From a virus, in the IMG/VR virus record IMGVR_UViG_3300032342_000021, positions 1 through 40,282 of that record: a stretch of DNA of 40,282 bases; one strand, 5' to 3'. The notes under the pieces are model-generated. The model ran no database searches. It had not been told where the DNA came from and was given only the letters and a program-made list of their open reading frames with translations. Both the position numbers and the translations under genes were made by a program. How positions within the stretch are numbered: the first letter of the stretch is position 1; the number at the start of each line of letters is the position of its first letter. Below, one piece after another: positions 14,078 through 24,165 of the stretch.

Positions 14078-14627
14078 TTTTATTTATGACGGCGGGGCCC
14101 ATGAACACTATATGGGCCTGCGCCGTATTTATTCCGTGACTCAAATTTTATCCCTTGCCGGGAGAATTGACACCCGGTGGTATAAACGAGGGAGCGCGGA
14201 ACTCGGAACGACAATACACAACCAATGCCATGACCTGCGAAACTGGATTTTTTCGGATGACGAACATCCAAAAGTCGAGGCATTTAAAAACTGGATGAAA
14301 CTGTCAGCGGCTGAATTTGTAATAACGGAAATGGAAATTCCGATGCTTTCAGAACAATTTTATTATTGCGGGAAAATTGACATACTTGCAAAACGGTCTG
14401 GCAAATATTGTGTCATTGATATAAAATCAGGGGCACCGGAAAAATGGCACGAAATGCAACTTGGTGCATACGCATGGATGATCCGGGAGACATACAAACT
14501 AAAATATTTGCCGGACGGGTACGGATTGTATTTAAAAACAGGCGGTAAATTTAGTTTTCCAAAAAAAGACACTACGGTAGGATTCGCGGATTTTAAAATT
14601 TGCATGGCGGAGGTAATTACAAAATGA
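14067..14627 (+). CDS. PD-(D/E)XK nuclease, probable recombination exonuclease
   Basis: About 186 residues from the ATG at 14067, overlapping the upstream stop. The motif set is clear: GTTIHNQCHDL (helix with His), YYCGKIDILAKRSGKYCVIDIKSG (GKID, then D-IKSG, the metal-binding D...D-x-K), then MQLGAYAWMI (Q-x3-Y). This is the RecB/YqaJ-like fold. It would resect double strands to give substrate for the ERF protein. Confidence 0.8.
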   Translation: MSDNFIYDGGAHEHYMGLRRIYSVTQILSLAGRIDTRWYKRGSAELGTTIHNQCHDLRNWIFSDDEHPKVEAFKNWMKLSAAEFVITEMEIPMLSEQFYYCGKIDILAKRSGKYCVIDIKSGAPEKWHEMQLGAYAWMIRETYKLKYLPDGYGLYLKTGGKFSFPKKDTTVGFADFKICMAEVITK

Positions 14628-15052
14628 AAATAGTTTTAATATCAAGTTTATTTGATGCGAAAATCACGGATACTCATTATATGATTCCTTTGCGGTACGA
14701 GAATTTTTTGTATTTAAAAAAAATGGCAGAGAAGGCGGCAACAGACGAAATCATAACTACTATATCCGTAGCAGATAAAAACCGAACGACAGGGGAGAGA
14801 TCGCAGAACCACCACATCAACGGACACATCCAGACGATAGCACAGGAGACGGGATCGGCGTTTGGTGCGGTAAAAGAGCATGTTAAAAAATTGGCGATTG
14901 ATCGAGGGTATCCTTTTACCGAGTTGAGGGACGGAACAATTCTCCCGTGCAGCGAGAGCGATATAACAACAGAGCAAGCAGGATTTTTAATTGAGGCTAT
15001 ACACCAATTTGCGGCCGAATTTGGGATCCAGCTGAAAGGAGGAGATGAATGA
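14624..15052 (+). CDS. Conserved phage protein, unknown function
   Basis: A 142-residue protein with GGAGG upstream; ATG overlaps the previous stop. Its central part RSQNHHINGHIQTIAQETG and the C-terminal LRDGTILPCSESDITTEQAG recall a family found beside NinG in phages. The histidine cluster could bind metal. No function is known to me. Confidence 0.65.
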   Translation: MKIVLISSLFDAKITDTHYMIPLRYENFLYLKKMAEKAATDEIITTISVADKNRTTGERSQNHHINGHIQTIAQETGSAFGAVKEHVKKLAIDRGYPFTELRDGTILPCSESDITTEQAGFLIEAIHQFAAEFGIQLKGGDE

Positions 15053-15414
15053 GAAAACAAACCATGACGTCTCTACGCAAAAAGCTGGACAAGGTTTTTG
15101 CGGAGTACGTTCGCGCGCGCGACGGCAATGTATGCTATACGTGCGGACAACCGGGGAATCAGGCAGGACATTTTTTCTCTCGGAATCATTTTAGCGTCCG
15201 ATGGGATGAGACAAATGTGCATTGCCAATGTGTGCGATGTAATTTGACTTTGGGTGGGAACGTGCATGCATACATACCTAAATTCGTTGAGCAGTACGGG
15301 CGACAGGCATACTACGATTTGCAAATCAAGGCAAACACAATTGCTAAACATAGTAATGACTGGATGCTGGAGCAGATAAATTACTACACAAAAAAAATGG
15401 AGGAATTGGAATGA
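15049..15414 (+). CDS. ninG: NinG/Rap-like recombination nuclease
   Basis: A 121-residue protein. VRARDGNVCYTCGQPGNQAG with HFFSRNH and NVHCQCVRCN gives two CxxC-type knuckles around an HNH-like core, the hallmark of lambda NinG (Rap). It continues with the family-typical YIPKFVEQYG. NinG-type proteins process recombination junctions. Lambda NinG is longer, so this is a compact version. Confidence 0.82.
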   Translation: MRKQTMTSLRKKLDKVFAEYVRARDGNVCYTCGQPGNQAGHFFSRNHFSVRWDETNVHCQCVRCNLTLGGNVHAYIPKFVEQYGRQAYYDLQIKANTIAKHSNDWMLEQINYYTKKMEELE

Positions 15415-15596
15415 CGGACGAAATTGAATATACGGTGCGATTAAAAAATGGAAAAACGCTGACTGTCCGGGCGGAGGATATGACTGACATGCATAAACAA
15501 ATGGCAAAAAAAGGCGAGGCGAAAAAAGATTATTATGTTGTCGGCTGGTTGAGATTGTCTTTGCCGAAACAGCAGGGATTCCCAGAAATTTATTGA
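15411..15596 (+). CDS. Small hypothetical protein
   Basis: A 61-residue protein, overlapping NinG by 4 bases. The start YTVRLKNGKTLTVRAEDM is a beta hairpin pattern; the rest is basic. No family recognised. Its stop codon lies inside the -35 of the next promoter, so transcription units touch without a gap. Confidence 0.6.
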   Translation: MTDEIEYTVRLKNGKTLTVRAEDMTDMHKQMAKKGEAKKDYYVVGWLRLSLPKQQGFPEIY

Positions 15597-15621
15597 CAAG
15601 TCGTTTTATCTGTGCTATTGT
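15593..15621 (+). promoter_or_regulatory. Promoter A (TTGACA-N17-TATTGT)
   Basis: Perfect -35 at 15593 and TATTGT at 15616 with 17-base spacing. It drives leader A and the ParB-methyltransferase unit. Confidence 0.8.
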
Positions 15622-15628
15622 AATATAC

Positions 15629-15698
15629 AATTGTGACAGCAATTAATTTGAGTTTTTGAGCCTGTTGCGATGCTGTCACATTGCGGCAGGCTTTTTTT
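15629..15698 (+). promoter_or_regulatory. Leader A: 5' hairpin kissing the terminator loop
   Basis: Hairpin 1 is AATTG / CAATT (15629-15644) with loop TGACAG. Hairpin 2 is a 13-bp terminator stem (15660-15691) with loop CTGTCA, then seven T. The two six-base loops are exact complements. Including flanks, TGTGACAGCA pairs with TGCTGTCACA for 10 bp, which would break the terminator. So either a kissing complex or an antiterminator switch is possible. Confidence 0.8.
15660..15698 (+). terminator. Leader A terminator, immediately before gene
   Basis: GCCTG-based 13-bp stem with wobble pairs, 6-base loop and a T7 tract, ending 3 bases before the GGAGGT ribosome site. Termination here would silence the following gene. 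Confidence 0.82.
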
Positions 15699-15711
15699 AT
15701 TGGAGGTCAAA

Positions 15712-16962
15712 GTGTTATTAGAAAAAAAAGAATACAGGGATTTGATACCGCCATTGAGCGCTGCGGAATACGCGGGCCTTGAGCAGTCGTGCATAAAAGA
15801 GGGAATCCGGGAAGCGATAATAGCTTTTGACGGCTTTATCATTGATGGACATCATCGGTATGAGATTGCAAAAAAACACGGCCTTGAGTATCGGACAATC
15901 GAAATGGAATTTAATTGTAAGGATGATGTGCTCATCTGGATTATTGACAATCAGTTTGCCCGGCGCAACCTGCTGGACATCGTCAAGGCCGAGCTGGCAC
16001 TGATGAAGAAGGCGATACTGGCAGCGAGGGGGCGAGCGAATATAGCGGACGGACAGGAGCGCAGACGATTGAAAGAGAGCGGCCTAACTTTATCAACAAT
16101 TGATAAAGATACGCACAACACGCAAGCAGAGCTTGCCGGCATGCTTGGCTGGAGCACGGGCAAGTTTGCACAGGCGGAAATCATTATCAAAAAGGCGACA
16201 CCGGAATTGCTAAAAGAGGTGCATCGCGGCGAGAAAAGCATAAATGAAGCGTACACCGAATGCAAAAAAAAAGAAAAAATAGAAAGACTAAAAATTCCTA
16301 TCACTGAAGACACATCAAAAAAAAATATCAAATTGTTTTGTGCTGATATGCTATTAAAAATTCCGACAATAGGTAAATTTGATTTGATAATTGCAGACCC
16401 GCCGTATAATGTGACAGAATGGGAATGGGATAAAATAGGTTCTGATTTTTTACCACAAACAAAAAAATGGTTGCAGGTTTGCAAAGATGCGTTAAAAGAG
16501 CAATATCATTTGTTTTGGTTTTGCTCTCCGTCTTATGCGGCAGATATAGAAATGATTTTTAGAGAATTAAATTTACCTATTTTGTCAAGGATTGTATGGC
16601 ACCGAAGGAATATGAGTATGGGTAGTGTTATAAAAAATAAATTCATTGATTCATGGGAAATGATTTTCCATTCTGGAAATCGTGAATTGAATTTACCTAC
16701 AAAATGGGATGATAAAAGATTCGACGTTCAAACGTTCGCAGTACCGCAAACTAATTTTACCGATATGAAAATACATCCAACACAAAAGCCGATAGAATTA
16801 ATAAAAATACTTGTAGAATTTGGATCTCATGATGGATGCAGAGTTCTTGATCCATTCGCAGGTTCCGGAGTTACTGCTGCAAGTTGTGACCATAGAGAGT
16901 ACGTATTAATTGAAAGGAACAAGGAATATGCAACAACCATCAAAAACAGATTTAATCTTTGA
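15712..16962 (+). CDS. ParB-domain / DNA methyltransferase fusion
   Basis: A 416-residue protein with GTG start after GGAGGTCAAA. Residues 1-110 are a ParB/sulfiredoxin-like domain (IIDGHHRYEIAKKHG, then NQFARRNLLD), and residues 110-190 are helical. From about residue 200 there is a beta-class N4/N6 amino-methyltransferase: IIADPPYNVTEWEWD (motif IV) precedes DPFAGSGVTAA (motif I). ParB-methyltransferase fusions are known in phages and protect DNA from restriction. The second half is visibly more AT-rich than the first, with the change near base 16260. Confidence 0.88.
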   Translation: MLLEKKEYRDLIPPLSAAEYAGLEQSCIKEGIREAIIAFDGFIIDGHHRYEIAKKHGLEYRTIEMEFNCKDDVLIWIIDNQFARRNLLDIVKAELALMKKAILAARGRANIADGQERRRLKESGLTLSTIDKDTHNTQAELAGMLGWSTGKFAQAEIIIKKATPELLKEVHRGEKSINEAYTECKKKEKIERLKIPITEDTSKKNIKLFCADMLLKIPTIGKFDLIIADPPYNVTEWEWDKIGSDFLPQTKKWLQVCKDALKEQYHLFWFCSPSYAADIEMIFRELNLPILSRIVWHRRNMSMGSVIKNKFIDSWEMIFHSGNRELNLPTKWDDKRFDVQTFAVPQTNFTDMKIHPTQKPIELIKILVEFGSHDGCRVLDPFAGSGVTAASCDHREYVLIERNKEYATTIKNRFNL

Positions 16963-17479
16963 AAATAATTGGAGAAGGCAACAAGAAATAAAAGGGCGTG
17001 TCCTGATCGATGTTATTTATAATAAATTATTTTCTACACAAAATTATAAATGCATGATTTTACGGAATGAGAGAGAAGATGCAGATATACTTGATAAACA
17101 TTTCGCGATTGATGTTCAAATAAAAACATTGACGGGGTTGATTCTTGTTGGACAAGAAAAAGTTTTAAGCAATGAATTTGTAAAATTTAAAAGTTTGACG
17201 ATAGAGCATTATCAAAATTGGCGAACTATGGAAATTGGAGATTGGTATAAAATGGCCGTTCAGTTTTATTTTGTTGGTTATCTAAATAAAGAAAAAACTG
17301 GTTTTGAAATATGGGTATTGGTTAATTGGGCAAATATAGTAAAAAGAACTTTTTTAAATGAAATAAAATGGATAGAGCAGCAAAATAAAAAAGAAGGAGC
17401 GAAAGCATCTTTTAAGTATTGTCATTTTGATTCTTTGCCTCCGGATTGTATTATGTATTCTAGTTTGGTTGGCGCATGA
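16928..17479 (+). CDS. AT-rich protein beside methyltransferase, possible nuclease
   Basis: A 183-residue protein. The ATG at 16928 follows AAGGAACAAGG and overlaps the methyltransferase 3' end by 35 bases. FAIDVQIKTLTG preceded by DADILDKH, then VGQEKVLS, could be a PD-(D/E)XK-like core (D...D-x-Q/K), but this is not certain. It is clearly AT-rich compared with its neighbours, like the methyltransferase half before it. The pair may have arrived together. Confidence 0.5.
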   Translation: MQQPSKTDLIFENNWRRQQEIKGRVLIDVIYNKLFSTQNYKCMILRNEREDADILDKHFAIDVQIKTLTGLILVGQEKVLSNEFVKFKSLTIEHYQNWRTMEIGDWYKMAVQFYFVGYLNKEKTGFEIWVLVNWANIVKRTFLNEIKWIEQQNKKEGAKASFKYCHFDSLPPDCIMYSSLVGA

Positions 17480-17530
17480 CTGGCTTCAGTCTGAGGCGTT
17501 TAATTCGGTACGGATTTGAAATCGGCGGGA

Positions 17531-17559
17531 TTGACACCTGAGTTTATCCGTGCTACTAT
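17531..17559 (+). promoter_or_regulatory. Promoter B (TTGACA-N17-TACTAT)
   Basis: Perfect -35 at 17531 and TACTAT at 17554 with 17-base spacing, driving leader B and the replisome organiser gene. Confidence 0.82.
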
Positions 17560-17563
17560 TGAC

Positions 17564-17689
17564 CGTGCAAATAATCAGGGCACGTTATCATGCAAAATCA
17601 AGAGCCCTTTTTTATCGGGGCAAGACTGTTTTTTTGCATGGCAGTCGGCAGGAGTGATTACCTGCACCCGATATAAAAGGGCTTTTTTT
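17564..17689 (+). promoter_or_regulatory. Leader B: branched leader RNA with loop-loop complementarity
   Basis: Hairpin 1 is CGTGC / GCACG (17564-17584) with an 11-base loop that contains TAATCA. The terminator is a long stem (17603-17619 with 17667-17683, one mismatch) enclosing two hairpins: GACTG / CAGTC (17624-17646) and GCAGG / CCTGC (17648-17665). The loop of the last contains TGATTA, the exact complement of TAATCA. The layout matches leaders A, C and D with different bases. Confidence 0.75.
17603..17689 (+). terminator. Leader B terminator (three-way junction)
   Basis: A 16-bp outer stem with one mismatch, two internal hairpins and a T7 tract, ending just before ATTGGAGGG. The downstream ATG is 17 bases after it. 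Confidence 0.8.
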
Positions 17690-17705
17690 ATTGGAGGGTG
17701 TGAAA

Positions 17706-18605
17706 ATGAAAATTGATTGGTTAAAATTAGACGTGAATATTTTAAACGATTCTAAAATAAAACTGATTCGTAACTATCCGGACGGTGATAAATTGGTTGT
17801 TTTATGGATTGGCTTATTATGCCTTGCGATGAAAAGCAATGAGTCTGGTTTAATTTACGTGACGCAGGGTATCCCTTTTTCTGTCACTGATTTGTCGAAC
17901 GAATTTGATATAGAAATTAAAACGGTAGAACTTGGATTGAGTTTATTCCGGCAATACAATATGATTGAAATTGCACAGGGGGGAACAATAGAAATTATAA
18001 ATTTTGAGAAACACCAAAGCCTTGACAGAATTGAAAATATGAAAAAATTAACAAATGAAAGGGTTAGAAAATTCCGGGATAAACAAAAATTGATATGTAA
18101 CGTTACTGAAACGTTACGTAACGCGGATGTAACGCAACAGATTAGACTAGATAAGACTAGACTAGATAAGAATAAAGAAGATAAGACAATCAAACCAGAT
18201 AAACCGACTAAACCAATTAACACAATCGAAAAGAATACTAATTTTATCACTCTTTACAACGCATATCCTAGACATATCGGAAAAGTATTAGCATACAAAG
18301 CATATACAGCGCGGATAAAAGAAGGGGTACTACACGATACACTAGTGATAGCGGTTAAAAATTACGCGGCGGAGGTGGAAAGAAACCGGACGGACGAAAA
18401 ATATATCATGCATCCGGCTACGTTTTTAGGGCCATCGGCGCGGTATGCTGACTATGGCGGGCAGAAAGAGGTAAACCAGAAACCGGAGCTGTTTTGTCCG
18501 GAGTGCGCGGCGGTTATTTCAAAAAACAGTTTTTGCTGGAATTGCGCGAGGACGATGAAAGGGCTTACGAAAAAGCCGAAAATTGAAGAATTAAAGGAGG
18601 GGTGA
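17706..18605 (+). CDS. Replisome organiser / replication initiator
   Basis: A 299-residue protein; ATG 17706 is 7 bases after GGAGGG. Residues 1-115 match the phage replisome-organiser N-terminal domain (WLKLDVNILNDSKIKLIRNY, then LWIGLLCLAMKSNESG and NFEKHQSLDRIENM). A linker RLDKTRLDKNKEDK is encoded by tandem repeats. The C-terminal part (YPRHIGKVLAYKAY, YIMHPATFLG) is helicase-loader-like, and it ends in a zinc ribbon CPECAAV...CWNC. It should open the origin and load the DnaB-type helicase encoded at 19691. Confidence 0.82.
   Translation: MKIDWLKLDVNILNDSKIKLIRNYPDGDKLVVLWIGLLCLAMKSNESGLIYVTQGIPFSVTDLSNEFDIEIKTVELGLSLFRQYNMIEIAQGGTIEIINFEKHQSLDRIENMKKLTNERVRKFRDKQKLICNVTETLRNADVTQQIRLDKTRLDKNKEDKTIKPDKPTKPINTIEKNTNFITLYNAYPRHIGKVLAYKAYTARIKEGVLHDTLVIAVKNYAAEVERNRTDEKYIMHPATFLGPSARYADYGGQKEVNQKPELFCPECAAVISKNSFCWNCARTMKGLTKKPKIEELKEG
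18097..18187. repeat. Iteron-like repeats inside initiator gene, candidate origin
   Basis: GTAACG occurs at 18097, 18118 and 18129, with its complement CGTTAC at 18101 and 18112. It is followed by AGACTAGATAAGA at 18144 and 18159 and an AT-rich purine run. Many phage initiator genes hold their origin inside the linker region, so this is the best origin candidate. Confidence 0.6.
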
Positions 18606-18608
18606 AAG

Positions 18609-18923
18609 ATGGACAGTTTAAATTCAGTGTTGATTGAAGGGACGATTGAGGGAGCGGTCGAAACGGTGCTAAAAGATGAAGCTGCGGTATGCACTTTTAC
18701 AATTTCGTCAAACAGATTTTACAAAAGAGCGAAAGAATACCAAAAAGAGATTTCTTTTTTCACCGTAATGGCATGGGGCGAGGTTGCTATAAAATGCGCA
18801 CTGCTATCACCGGGGCAGGGCGTTCGCATTGTCGGTCGGTTGTGGCAGAGCAACACTGGCGCGGTATTGGTTCGTGCTGAGATTGTGGAGAGCAAACCGG
18901 AGAGCGCGGAAAAAAAGGCTTGA
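18609..18923 (+). CDS. ssb: Single-stranded DNA-binding protein, OB fold (first of two)
   Basis: A 104-residue protein with GGAGG upstream. The opening SLNSVLIEGTIEG, then CTFTISSNRFYKR, EISFFTVMAWG and GQGVRIVGRLWQ follow the SSB OB-fold. There is no acidic DDIPF tail. The start and NRFYKR...YQKEISFF resemble, from memory, spirochaete SSBs. It follows the initiator gene and likely serves the phage fork. Confidence 0.8.
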   Translation: MDSLNSVLIEGTIEGAVETVLKDEAAVCTFTISSNRFYKRAKEYQKEISFFTVMAWGEVAIKCALLSPGQGVRIVGRLWQSNTGAVLVRAEIVESKPESAEKKA

Positions 18924-18948
18924 CAAATTACGCCGGGGCGAGTATAGT
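18920..18948 (+). promoter_or_regulatory. Promoter C (TTGACA-N17-TATAGT)
   Basis: Perfect -35 overlapping the SSB stop codon, 17-base spacer, TATAGT at 18943. It drives leader C, the HTH protein and the helicase. Confidence 0.85.
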
Positions 18949-18960
18949 TATAGATAGTAA

Positions 18961-19089
18961 ATCCCTTGACAGGGATGTTATAACCATGTTTTTAAATGAG
19001 CCGTAAAAGGTTCAGGGTGTTTTGACAGGGGTCACATGGTTCCTCTGTCAGACTGTCAACCCTGAATTTTGTACGGCTTTTTATTTTTT
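18961..19089 (+). promoter_or_regulatory. Leader C: branched leader RNA with loop-junction complementarity
   Basis: Hairpin 1 is ATCCC / GGGAT (18961-18976) with loop TTGACA. The terminator outer stem AGCCGTA / TACGGCT plus TTCAGGGT / ACCCTGAA (18999-19078) encloses a 9-bp hairpin (19023-19050) and a single-stranded GACTGTCA (19051-19058). TGTCAA at 19054-19059 is the exact complement of loop 1. CTGTCA at 19053 is the same hexamer used in leader A. Confidence 0.75.
18999..19089 (+). terminator. Leader C terminator
   Basis: A compound stem of 7 and 8 bp with a short A/T extension between, one internal hairpin, then a T-rich tract ending 1 base before the AGGAGG ribosome site. Confidence 0.8.
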
Positions 19090-19099
19090 AGGAGGTTTT

Positions 19100-19675
19100 A
19101 TGACAACAAAGGAAATTGCGGAGGCGGTTGGAAAAACAGAACGTAGCGTGCGAAACTGGGTAGCGAAGGTGGCGGAAAATTTTTCCGCCGTGGCGGAAAA
19201 ATCTTCCGCGAGCACTTCAACATATCCTGCTGATTATGATTTGGAAGAAACTTGCCTAATTATCGAAGAGGGCATAGGAAAGAATGCCGCCGATCTTTTT
19301 AGGATGGGGGCGAAAAACAATGTAAAGGTAGTTCCACAAAATGTGGCAGGATTTGACAAATTGGCAGAGTCCATTCTGTCGATGGTTTCCGCTGTCACTC
19401 GGTTATGCGACAGACAGGAATCTCAAGAGGGTCGACTTTCCATTCTTGAGAAAAAACCTTTACAAATTGATTTTACTCCAGACCGATATTCGATTTTAGG
19501 ATATTGCAATTTCAAAAAAATACAGATTACATATTCCGAGGCAATCCAGTACGGAAGGAAAGCTGCAAAAATCACGAGGGAAAAAGGATTTGAGGTTCGG
19601 AAAATTGCGGATGAGCGGCATGGTACTGTAGGGAGTTATCCGATCGAGATACTCAATGATATTTTTGAACTATAA
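19100..19675 (+). CDS. HTH DNA-binding protein, antirepressor-like
   Basis: A 191-residue protein, ATG after GGAGGTTTT. Residues 1-25 are a helix-turn-helix (TTKEIAEAVGKTERSVRNW). The C-terminal part (EAIQYGRKAAKITREKGFEV, DERHGTVGSYPIEIL) resembles the C-terminal domain of phage antirepressors. A GGCGGAAAA / TTTTCCGCC inverted repeat (about 19172-19191) lies in the linker DNA. No matching repressor gene is visible here, so its target is unknown. Confidence 0.7.
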   Translation: MTTKEIAEAVGKTERSVRNWVAKVAENFSAVAEKSSASTSTYPADYDLEETCLIIEEGIGKNAADLFRMGAKNNVKVVPQNVAGFDKLAESILSMVSAVTRLCDRQESQEGRLSILEKKPLQIDFTPDRYSILGYCNFKKIQITYSEAIQYGRKAAKITREKGFEVRKIADERHGTVGSYPIEILNDIFEL

Positions 19676-19690
19676 AAAGATAGGTGAAGC

Positions 19691-20911
19691 ATGAGATTAA
19701 ACGAATACGAGCGGGCCATACTTGGATCCGTGTTGATTGATCCGGGGATGATTGATGAGTGCGTGCTTTTGCCTGAGGATTTTACGCAAAAAGAAAATCG
19801 CTCTCTGTTTGCCGTATTGCAACAAATGCGGGTTGATCATAAACCAATCGATTTAGTTACCGTGGCACAGGAGATAGACAAGGAGATTGTGCCTGTACAC
19901 TATCTAGCGGGGTTGCCGGAGCTGTCGGGAAATTTTGAATTTTACGTGCGGGAAATTTTGAGGGTGTCGGTTGCGCGGCGGTTGAAAAAATTACCGCTGT
20001 TGATTGAGGATGCGCTAAAAATTGGAGACGCATACGAGGCTATCGAGATAATTGACAAATATATCCATGAGCACGGCGACCGGAAAGAGAATAATATTTT
20101 CGAGGTGAAAAATTTACTGACACCGGCGATTAACAGGATTGAGGCGGCGTATTCCCGGAAGCCGGGGACTATGAGCGGGATCACGACAGGATTTACAGGG
20201 TTGGATTTGTCAACCGATGGATTTCAAAACGGGGATCTTATTTTTGTTGGGGCGCGGCCGTCAATCGGAAAAACAGCGATTTTGTTACATATGGCAAAGT
20301 CGGCGGCACAGGCGGGGCACGTTGGGGGAATTTTTAGTTTGGAAATGGACAAAAATTCTTTGATGAATCGAATTATTGCGGCGGCTGGAAAAATGGAATT
20401 ACTGGCTATCAGGTCGGGAAAAATGCGGACTAGTGATTTTCATGATTTATTGAACGGCGCGGAACAGATAAACAAAATGAATTTGTTGATTGACGATACA
20501 CCGAACATGCATATTCGAGATTTAAAAGCGAGTGCGAGGAAAATGCACCGGATGGGAGCGCGGATTTTGTATGTGGATTACTTGACGTTGATTAGAGATT
20601 CAAACCGGGGGATGCCGAAACATGAACGGGTCGGGGAAATTACAAAAGATTTACGGCAGATAGCGAGGGAGTTAAAAATTCCGGTTGTTGTTGCCAGTCA
20701 GTTGAACCGAGACGCGGAAGGGAAAAAGCCGAGCTTGGCGGAATTGCGGGCGTCCGGGAGTGTGGAGGAAGATGGGGATGTGGTGATCCTTTTACATCGA
20801 GATCGCAAAGGGGATGATTTTTTTGTGATGTTGGAAAAACAGCGGAATGGCCCGGTGGATGAATTTCAAGTTAATTTTCATAAACCGTCGGCGAGTTTTT
20901 CGGATTTTTAA
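19691..20911 (+). CDS. dnaB: Replicative DNA helicase, DnaB-type
   Basis: A 406-residue protein. The N-terminal helical domain (NEYERAILGSVLIDPGMIDE, residues 4-23) is DnaB-like. Walker A is GARPSIGKT at 187-195, Walker B is ARILYVDYLTLI near 290, then VVVASQLNRDAE and RASGSVEEDGDVVILLHRD. It is slightly shorter than bacterial DnaB. It unwinds the phage fork after loading by the initiator at 17706. Confidence 0.93.
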   Translation: MRLNEYERAILGSVLIDPGMIDECVLLPEDFTQKENRSLFAVLQQMRVDHKPIDLVTVAQEIDKEIVPVHYLAGLPELSGNFEFYVREILRVSVARRLKKLPLLIEDALKIGDAYEAIEIIDKYIHEHGDRKENNIFEVKNLLTPAINRIEAAYSRKPGTMSGITTGFTGLDLSTDGFQNGDLIFVGARPSIGKTAILLHMAKSAAQAGHVGGIFSLEMDKNSLMNRIIAAAGKMELLAIRSGKMRTSDFHDLLNGAEQINKMNLLIDDTPNMHIRDLKASARKMHRMGARILYVDYLTLIRDSNRGMPKHERVGEITKDLRQIARELKIPVVVASQLNRDAEGKKPSLAELRASGSVEEDGDVVILLHRDRKGDDFFVMLEKQRNGPVDEFQVNFHKPSASFSDF

Positions 20912-20929
20912 GGAGGGCGTGAAAAATCC

Positions 20930-20958
20930 TTGACAAAAAGATGAATATGGGTTATGAT
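20930..20958 (+). promoter_or_regulatory. Promoter D (TTGACA-N17-TATGAT)
   Basis: Perfect -35 at 20930 and TATGAT at 20953 with 17-base spacing, 19 bases after the helicase gene. It drives leader D. Confidence 0.87.
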
Positions 20959-20961
20959 TTG

Positions 20962-21040
20962 ATTGACTGATAGGCAGTCAATAAGTATGGTTTTTGAACC
21001 CCTGTGATTTTTGCCTATCAGAAATTGCGGGGGTTTTTTT
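20962..21040 (+). promoter_or_regulatory. Leader D: 5' hairpin kissing the terminator loop
   Basis: Hairpin 1 is a perfect 8-bp ATTGACTG / CAGTCAAT (20962-20982) with loop ATAGG. The terminator stem (20997-21035) has an 11-base loop holding CCTAT, the exact complement. The potential pairing extends to CTGATAGGCA with TGCCTATCAG (10 bp). Same design as leader A with unrelated sequence. Confidence 0.82.
20997..21040 (+). terminator. Leader D terminator
   Basis: AACCCC / GGGGTT stem extended to about 14 bp with wobble pairs, then a T7 tract followed by ATTGGTGAGG. Confidence 0.85.
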
Positions 21041-21046
21041 ATTGGT

Positions 21047-21127
21047 GAGGCGAGGCGCGGCAGGGCGGGGCCGGGCCCGGCGCGGCTTGGCATGGCATGG
21101 CACGGCAGGCACGGCGAGGCAAGGGCG
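21047..21127. repeat. GGCNN pentanucleotide repeat tract 1
   Basis: About 80 bases made almost wholly of GGC spaced every five bases (for example GGCATGGCATGGCACGGCAG). It is non-coding, between leader D and the gene at 21166. A sister tract is at 22261. The G-rich strand is the + strand. Confidence 0.85.
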
Positions 21128-21165: not shown

Positions 21166-21768
21166 ATGGCAAAAACAAGAGAGACGACGATCGAGTTAAA
21201 ACCGATTAACATTCAGAAAATTTTAATGGAAATAGAAGGGGATTCGCCTTTAATTACCCATGCATGGAGTGCAAAGTCGAAAAAGGAAATGCTGGATAAA
21301 ATGCAGAAGAAAGCAAAAACGGCAAGGGTATCGAGAGACCCGGAGAAAGATTATCAAGAGGCGTTTTATAGATTGCCCGGAGGAGAACCAGGATTCCCGA
21401 CGATAGGATTCAAAGCGGCCGCAGTGAGCGCGGGAGGACGTTTCTCTGAAGGTATGAAAATGACGGAAATGCGCGGATCATTTCACATTGAAGGGGAACT
21501 TGTGGAAATCATAGGTGAACCTGAAATGAGAGAGGACACGGTACGGGTTGGCATGGGATCTGCTGATTTACGGTATCGACCGGAATTTAAAAACTGGAAA
21601 ACGTATCTGCCTATTCGATACAACGCAGACAAAATCAGCCTTGACCAACTCGTTAATATTTTCAATTTGGCCGGGTTTGGTGTGGGTGTCGGCGAGTGGA
21701 GGCCGGAGAAAGACGGTCAATACGGAATGTTTCACGTTGTCTCTATAAAGCAGGAGAAAAAAGCATGA
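21166..21768 (+). CDS. Conserved phage protein, unknown function
   Basis: A 200-residue protein; the ATG at 21166 follows AAAGGG, and the frame upstream is only repeat DNA. The stretch SPLITHAWSAKSKKEMLDK and later FPTIGFKAAAVSAG recall a conserved family found among phage replication genes. It may be a nucleic-acid-binding protein, but no catalytic motif is visible. It overlaps the next gene by ATGA. Confidence 0.65.
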   Translation: MAKTRETTIELKPINIQKILMEIEGDSPLITHAWSAKSKKEMLDKMQKKAKTARVSRDPEKDYQEAFYRLPGGEPGFPTIGFKAAAVSAGGRFSEGMKMTEMRGSFHIEGELVEIIGEPEMREDTVRVGMGSADLRYRPEFKNWKTYLPIRYNADKISLDQLVNIFNLAGFGVGVGEWRPEKDGQYGMFHVVSIKQEKKA

Positions 21769-22250: not shown

Positions 22251-22260
22251 GGGGTTTAGA

Positions 22261-22334
22261 TAGGCGAGGCGCGGCATGGCACGGCTGGGATAGGCAAGGC
22301 GTGGCACGGCGCGGCGAGGCAGGGCAAGGCAGGG
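22261..22334. repeat. GGCNN pentanucleotide repeat tract 2
   Basis: GGC every five bases for about 74 bases, ending in a T8 tract (22335-22342) directly before the AAAGGAGG of the next gene. No stable hairpin is visible, so it is not an ordinary terminator. Confidence 0.85.
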
Positions 22335-23056: not shown

Positions 23057-23128
23057 CGCAGGGTGGAGCAGTGGTAGCTTGACGGCCTCATAAGCCGGTG
23101 GACGCCGGTTCGATTCCTGTCCCTGCGT
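23057..23128 (+). tRNA. tRNA-Met (CAT), initiator-like
   Basis: Acceptor CGCAGGG / CCCTGCG (7 bp), D arm GAGC / GCTT with a short GG-containing loop, anticodon loop CTCATAA (CAT at 23089-23091), and T loop TTCGATT. The 5' half resembles bacterial initiator tRNA, including the A11-T24 pair. Departures: C1 pairs with G72, one A-G mismatch tops the anticodon stem, and one C-T mismatch lies in the T stem. CCA is not encoded. It may be functional or slightly decayed. Confidence 0.8.
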
Positions 23129-23341: not shown

Positions 23342-23845
23342 ATGAACGCGAAAGAATTTATTGACAATCTGAGTACGATGAAATGGTTTGCAGGCGCGGG
23401 AAAAATTAATCCTGTGTGGAAAATGTTTGACACCCGTGATGCGGCGAGGGATGCAGCGAAGGTTGCGGCGTGGGATGCGGCGCTGGATGCGGCGTGGGGT
23501 GCAGCGAAGGATGCGGCGTGGGGTGCAGCGTTGGATGCGGCGTTGGATGCGGCGAGGGACGCGGCGAAGGTTGTGGAGAGGGATGCGGTGTGGGATGCGG
23601 CGAGGGTTGCGGCGAAGGTTGCGGCGAAGGTTGCGGCGAGGGATGCGGTGTGGGATGCGTCGGGGGATGCGGTGTGGGATGCGGCTCGTATAGCTGGCTG
23701 TTTGGTTGTTGCGGAGTTAATCGACAAAAAACACATAGGTTTTTGTGATGAGGTTGCGGAGATTTGGTCGGCTGGGTATGGTCGATACGCGACGATTGAC
23801 AGCGTTCACTACGTGTATACGAGGCTGGGGCGGAGTGAAAAATGA
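23342..23845 (+). CDS. Alanine-rich tetrapeptide-repeat protein, copy 1
   Basis: A 167-residue protein. Residues 1-30 and the last 55 or so are ordinary sequence; between them are about 20 tetrapeptides of type x-D/V/G-A-A (such as [12 protein letters not shown]). The repeat should form a long alanine-faced helix. Ala-Trp/Arg repeat proteins of this kind are common in phages of gut bacteria, some grouped with putative immunity proteins; function unknown. It overlaps the second copy by 4 bases. Confidence 0.75.
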
Positions 23846-24165
23846 ACGCGAAAGAATTTATTGACAATCTGAGTACGATGAAATGGTTTGCAGGCGCGGG
23901 AAAAATTAATCCTGTGTGGAAAATGTTTGACACCCGTGATGCAGCGTTGGTTGCGGCGTGGGATGTGGCGAAGAATGCGGCGAGGGATGCGGCGTTGGGT
24001 GCGGTGTTGGATGCGGCGTGGACAGCAGCGTTGGATGCGGCGGGGGATGCAGCGAAGGATGCGGTGTTGGATGCGGCGAAGGTTGCGGCGTTGGGTGCGG
24101 TGTTGGATGCGGCGAGGACAGCGGCGAGGGATGCGGCGGGGGATGCGGTATGGGATGCGGCTCGT
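23431..24165. repeat. Two 12-base-unit repeat arrays in duplicated genes
   Basis: Units of the form GATGCGGCGNGG repeat through about 23431-23690 and 23937-24165, flanked by identical sequence. The unit is a multiple of three, so gain or loss keeps the frame. Confidence 0.85.

Follow-up and report, generated by a model that had tools for sequence, protein, structure and literature searches.

A candidate family of kissing-loop transcription attenuators in early leaders of phages related to those of Spirochaetota

Competing stems are the usual means of controlling intrinsic terminators. In classical leader attenuators and in kissing-loop riboswitches a premature intrinsic terminator stands before the ribosome site, and in the pT181-type antisense attenuators it is the kissing of loops that decides between termination and read-through. 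The put RNAs of phage HK022 (putL and putR) consist of two stem-loops with a shared sequence, bind the zinc-binding domain of RNA polymerase and act kilobases away (PMC9378689), while the CI RNA of P4 is a processed, trans-acting RNA that pairs with seqA and seqC (PMC4825925). In engineered orthogonal attenuators the specificity is reported to be altered by swapping loop pairs (PMC3753616). Here, we describe four leaders in a virus record of 40,282 bases (IMG/VR IMGVR_UViG_3300032342_000021; this whole stretch is called the window below), in each of which the loop of a 5' hairpin is complementary to a loop or junction of the intrinsic terminator behind it. We would give an even chance to the reading that they are members of a family of transcription attenuators made of RNA, which occurs in phages and prophages akin to those of Spirochaetota and in which this kissing sets terminator read-through.

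The window has no close match among annotated phages, and a megablast search of the leader region against phages gave no match. The leaders begin with near-consensus sigma-70 promoters (10-11 of 12 consensus positions, spacer of 17) at 15593, 17531, 18920 and 20930, which are the best four sites within 14-24 kb of the window. Minimum free energy (MFE) folding gives a 5' hairpin and an intrinsic terminator in all four (z = -4.4 to -6.0), as the initial annotation, made from the sequence of the window, had proposed. That annotation had also let a ribosome site follow each terminator. This holds for leaders 1, 2 and 3, which lead directly into a ribosome site and gene, and fails for leader 4, where no usable ribosome site or gene lies immediately 3' and a repeat tract (21043-21125) intervenes before the ATG at 21166. 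The genes behind the four leaders are unrelated, encoding a ParB-like protein/DNA methyltransferase, a DnaD-like protein, a helix-turn-helix (HTH) protein with a DnaB-like helicase, and the phrog_4652 protein, respectively.

The loop complementarities recorded in the initial annotation are correct, and in leaders 1 and 4 they extend further than it had stated. Leaders 1 and 4 have one pairing and are called simple; leaders 2 and 3 have two and are called double. In leader 1 the match is 10 nt long (TGTGACAGCA/TGCTGTCACA) and exceeds the TGACAG/CTGTCA noted before; in leader 4 it is likewise 10 nt (CTGATAGGCA/TGCCTATCAG) and exceeds ATAGG/CCTAT. The known matches of leaders 2 (TAATCA/TGATTA) and 3 (TTGACA/TGTCAA) are 6 nt, or 7 nt in leader 3 with one flanking base, and each is accompanied by a second pairing that had been missed, of 9 nt in leader 2 (CATGCAAAA/TTTTGCATG) and of 8 nt in leader 3 (AACCATGT/ACATGGTT). 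The two pairings are nested: the first element pairs with the last terminator loop, and the second element, after the 5' hairpin, with the first inner loop. Positions are collected in Table 1. Kissing words of at least 8 nt have no further copy anywhere in the window; hence no separate partner RNA is encoded there, and the leader would be its own partner, either in cis or through another copy.

Among the described systems, the leaders seem to work most like a kissing-loop attenuator with both partners in one transcript. The premature terminator before the ribosome site is shared with classical attenuators and riboswitches, whereas neither an alternative antiterminator stem nor a conserved aptamer was found here, complementarity being the sole conserved thing. 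In pT181-type attenuators a separate antisense RNA serves as partner and mutually exclusive stems form the switch; here, both partners lie in one leader and the loops alone pair. A pT181-type attenuator is not supported, as the window holds no separate antisense word of at least 8 nt, a test that does not extend to antisense transcription of the leader itself. Like P4 CI and the c4 RNA of P1/P7 (RF01695), the leaders are phage leader RNAs with short complementary segments within the transcript and a premature termination before replication genes; they differ in that the loop of a 5' hairpin pairs with that of an intrinsic terminator, and each unit has its own set. As with putL and putR, RNA hairpins follow directly on early promoters and the RNA would act in cis on terminators, but the leaders are defined by a loop match, itself of free sequence, with the adjacent terminator. 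In the simple leaders a single hairpin precedes the terminator, and their loops have no common sequence. By this comparison they are not put RNAs, because the defining shared sequence is absent. Scans with Rfam 15, at the gathering threshold and at E up to 5, matched the leaders to no family, the C4 model included; in the loci, matches were limited to tRNA genes and TD-2. The TD-2 RNA (RF03162, 67 bits; L114:5095-5191) lies inside a protein-coding open reading frame (ORF) in a treponeme prophage neighbourhood and is unrelated to the leaders. The earlier remark that no family with this layout had been described agrees with Rfam 15 and with the open literature searched, a coverage that takes in few subscription journals.

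The complementarity is unlikely to be fortuitous. Shuffling of the 5' parts of leaders 1-4 gave P = 0.0017, 0.028, 0.028 and 0.0005 (Fisher combined 1.2e-6), and the true pairing of 5' parts with their own terminators has the top sum of the 24 assignments (37, next best 31). In a set of 11 leaders, taken from several phages, the longest match averaged 8.0 with own and 4.7 with foreign terminators (0 of 200,000 permutations). Because this set had partly been found by complementarity, the test was repeated on 43 non-redundant leaders, picked from all loci fetched by promoter, terminator and ribosome site alone. A match of at least 7 nt occurs in 25 of these, compared with 5.9% of mismatched leader pairs; at least 8 nt is reached by 17 (cross pairs 1.9%) and at least 9 nt by 9 (cross pairs 0.3%), and none of 100,000 permutations reached the observed match sum. 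The remaining leaders of this set include coding or tRNA-associated terminators. Between the 5' hairpin loop and its own terminator (loop or junction), complementarity exceeds the cross-leader control, and the same comparison for the ribosome site and the terminator interior gave a self mean of 2.9 vs 3.3 for cross pairs (permutation p 0.945).

The initial annotation had read the changing words within one genome as covariation. Taken alone this argument is weak, the four leaders being unalignable, and genuine covariation comes from homologues. Four homologous leader groups were gathered by BLAST or gene homology, complementarity being no selection criterion. In all four the stems are kept and the kissing pair is altered on both sides. 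Homologues that keep the terminator and lose the complementarity, which the annotation had named as evidence against itself, did not appear in these groups: the changed loops stay complementary by compensatory change. In group a, L166 and L178 carry TTGGTCTGTT/AACAGACCA and L165, L171, L177, L179 and L180 carry TTGGTGTGTT/AACACACCA; in the alignment all 9 pairs of the kissing helix are kept (100% paired), one of them going from GC to CG, and the whole-structure covariation score lies above every one of 500 shuffles and every slid version. Group b has two compensated positions between L114 (TTGTGGTC/GACCACAA) and L118/L142 (TTGCGGTT/AACCGCAA). In group c, leader 3 of the window is compared with L003, the near relative found with the DnaB-like helicase: TTGACA/TGTCAA becomes TTGACC/GGTCAA, and the second pairing is swapped whole for GAACAAC/GTTGTTC. 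Group d opposes L169 (GATGAGC/GCTCATC) and L181 (GAGTGC/GCACTC). From this compensatory change, and because of the excess of own-terminator matches over cross pairs, we conclude on sequence evidence that selection maintains the loop pairing as an RNA structure. The case of leaders 1, 2 and 4 rests on the family, because no divergent homologue was found; L003 has leaders 2 and 4 in a nearly or fully identical form and lacks leader 1.

In group a the kissing word recurs in the ribosome site (GGTCTG or GGTGTG), and the two change together, so that the terminator loop could pair additionally with the ribosome site. Such sequestration is apparent in this group, where GAGGTCTG and GAGGTGTG co-change with the loops, but was seen in no other leaders and is not general.

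The family is larger than the initial annotation had claimed. The helicase search led, besides L003, to L004 (33% identical), the replication gene of which is preceded by a simple leader (GTGATGG/CCATCAC). With the NinB/Orf-like gene of the window (14624-15052) as anchor, viral contigs (L026-L063 and L149-L218) and Spirochaetota genomes were obtained. At 58 terminators of Spirochaetota prophages there are 13 simple and 4 double matches, as against 1+1 with reversed, 0+2 with complemented and 0+2 with same-sense controls. Further viral contigs gave 19+8 of 124, the respective controls giving 2+8, 2+9 and 2+5. The double criterion alone is unspecific, because these control counts match those observed, and double leaders were accepted only after inspection, promoter and ribosome site being required. 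The first detectors were too strict and lost loops longer than 12 nt and stems with one G-C pair, such as leader 1 and the L025 leader. About 30 distinct leaders beyond those of the window came to light, and the resulting panel comprises 33. Several phages have two to four leaders with differing words: four in the window, three each in L003 and L214, and two each in L119, L145 and L182. The genes behind them are as unrelated across the family, including methyltransferases, replication initiators, an Ant-domain protein, HTH/excisionase-like proteins and many small early ORFs. No convincing leader was found in lambda, HK022, P4, P22, Geobacillus virus E2, Streptococcus 315.1 and one faecal phage contig of 249 kb, which together gave three 7-nt matches in poor contexts, and a nucleotide search for close copies of a treponeme leader found only three places in two genomes. 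The terminase of the window has relatives 27-34% identical in Spirochaetota, and the anchor gene and leaders also occur in Spirochaetota prophages; the window phage likely infects a spirochaete.

The leaders themselves look like modular junctions for recombination. L003 is without the unit of leader 1 and the methyltransferase (window 15276-15617 and 17530-17697 versus L003:1-482); at the junction the promoters of leaders 1 and 2 form a hybrid, and a different gene follows leader 2 there.

Parts, pairing, covariation of the pairing and reuse before unrelated genes are established by these comparisons, from which we infer that the pairing sets how frequently polymerase passes the terminator. 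Control of premature termination is the likely function. Transcription rather than translation would be controlled, because the terminator lies between promoter and ribosome site and because the ribosome site pairs with the terminator interior no more than by chance; for a pairing at this position, only termination control seems to make easy sense. As to the sign of the effect, antitermination is the reading that we favour, and a terminated leader may then compete in trans. Each early unit starts at a strong promoter, followed by a short leader hairpin and an intrinsic terminator just before the gene. The 5' hairpin would fold first; as the terminator loop leaves the polymerase, it would be captured by the 5' hairpin, closure of the terminator would be hindered and the gene transcribed. 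In the branched type, a second leader segment additionally pairs with a terminator loop. If the 5' loop is already occupied, for example by terminated leader RNA from the same promoter, the terminator would win, and the outcome would be a sequence-specific feedback private to each unit. Some points speak against this scheme. Loop pairing alone leaves the terminator stem intact, unlike ordinary antiterminators, and because the stem is spared, the structure does not of itself demand an effect on termination. A rough estimate of linker lengths is undecided on whether kissing and a fully closed terminator can coexist, and was not used for the sign as several hairpins were mis-assigned.

The same structures can be read in other ways. 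Less likely in our view, but a serious alternative, is that kissing is a clamp that helps the terminator to fold, with the gene off by default until a trans-acting RNA or protein takes one of the loops. Kissing involves only loop bases and is on paper compatible with the terminator hairpin, and the 5' region of the branched type contacts the two arms of the terminator in a nested arrangement; the terminators are, however, already predicted to be so stable that extra help seems unneeded, and the roughly 2 nt between S2 and the terminator stem in leader 2 would, by geometry, make a simultaneous full closure hard. A strong promoter and a terminator also suffice to produce a short RNA, and the terminated leader might be the product, a stable trans-acting phage RNA for immunity or copy control like P4 CI or P1 c4 RNA, folded or protected by the kissing. 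The loop words change fast while the stems stay, as in plasmid antisense RNAs, and pairing of P4 CI RNA with leader sequences leads to premature termination (PMC4825925). We hold this to be improbable: the long kissing words recur nowhere else in the window, the C4 model of Rfam does not match, and a ribosome site directly 3' of the terminator is best explained by read-through.

The initial annotation had thought of a put-like cis antiterminator, in which polymerase, bound by the leader RNA, would pass over terminators, distant ones too. Early phage units with hairpins near the RNA start, directly after the promoter, are what such a device would show, but putL and putR share sequence and need no loop match with a terminator (PMC9378689), whereas the leaders of one genome have only layout and pairing in common, with free loop sequences and an adjacent terminator. 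The idea has very little probability left. The annotation's other suggestion, a sensor of a phage or host factor, is unsupported, with evidence neither way. That the words are inverted repeats of the DNA itself, as operator half-sites, recombination sites or chance palindromes, we regard as extremely unlikely. Kissing words are by nature inverted repeats, and recombination at these promoters is evident in L003; against this, they differ among the leaders of one genome, lie in RNA loops and change compensatorily, and the cross-pair controls fail.

If kissing does set read-through, a contact with the terminator loop that is conserved in over 30 distinct natural leaders while the pair sequences change would be another way of setting termination, and would give insight into early-gene timing in spirochaete phages, whose gene control is hardly known. 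The family is also a source of loop pairs that are orthogonal by nature and ready for use, and the four groups with compensatory change make the mechanism directly testable by loop swaps. More tentatively, and with some doubt, the leaders may represent phage RNA switches of an undescribed, widespread class, in which control of a terminator is exerted via its loop and not its stem, compensatory diversification is rapid, several independent switches operate per genome and trans feedback is confined to the own unit: a natural counterpart of the engineered orthogonal attenuators.

Table 1. Features of the four leader units and of the anchor gene in the window
Feature	Positions	Strand	Basis	Details
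NinB/Orf-like gene	14624-15052	+	phrog_72	anchor for related loci
Leader 1 promoter	15593-15621	+	promoter scan	TTGACA-17-TATTGT
Leader 1 5' hairpin	15628-15646	+	MFE fold	kissing word TGTGACAGCA, 15632-15641
Leader 1 terminator	15658-15693	+	MFE fold	loop word TGCTGTCACA, 15671-15680; U-tract, then GGAGG and GTG 15712
ParB-like/DNA methyltransferase gene	15712-16962	+	phrog_67 4e-44, phrog_4715	behind leader 1
Leader 2 promoter	17531-17559	+	promoter scan	TTGACA-17-TACTAT
Leader 2 5' hairpin H1	17564-17584	+	MFE fold	loop AAATAATCAGG; TAATCA 17572-17577 pairs with T2
Leader 2 single-stranded S2	17589-17597	+		CATGCAAAA, pairs with T1
Leader 2 branched terminator	17600-17688	+	MFE fold	T1 loop TTTTGCATG 17632-17640; T2 loop TGATTA 17655-17660; U-tract
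DnaD-like replisome organiser gene	17706-18605	+	phrog_4880 8e-36	behind leader 2
Leader 3 promoter	18920-18948	+	promoter scan	TTGACA-17-TATAGT
Leader 3 5' hairpin H1	18961-18976	+	MFE fold	ATCCC-TTGACA-GGGAT; TTGACA 18966-18971
Leader 3 S2	18982-18989	+		AACCATGT, pairs with T1
Leader 3 terminator	18998-19080	+	MFE fold	T1 loop ACATGGTT 19034-19041; T2 junction TGTCAA 19054-19059
HTH and DnaB-like helicase genes	19100-20911	+		behind leader 3; HTH 19100-19675, helicase 19691-20911
Leader 4 promoter	20930-20958	+	promoter scan	TTGACA-17-TATGAT
Leader 4 5' hairpin	20962-20982	+	MFE fold	kissing word CTGATAGGCA, 20967-20976
Leader 4 terminator	20996-21040	+	MFE fold	loop word TGCCTATCAG, 21012-21021
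GC-rich GGCNN repeat tract	21043-21125	+	read by eye	between leader 4 and gene
Conserved phage protein gene	21166-21768	+	phrog_4652	unknown function; behind leader 4

Some minor features of these loci may be recorded. Long operator-like dyads overlap the transcription start in L145 (minus strand, 3504), L117 (4172) and L119 (minus strand, 4043), an example among the treponeme leaders being TTACATGTAATCA...TGATTACATGTAA. At L061:954-1200 a promoter is followed by a tRNA-like stretch, a terminator with complementary segments in parallel order and then a gene, which is possibly a different device. Two GC-rich tracts of GGCNNGGCNN-type repeats (ggcgaggcgcggcagggcggg...) precede early genes of the window, the one directly 3' of leader 4 and another at 22256-22330. 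Further downstream, the window has a tRNA-Met (CAT) gene at 23057-23128 and, at 23438-24160, direct repeats inside ORFs, which are visible as multiple BLAST matches to L003.

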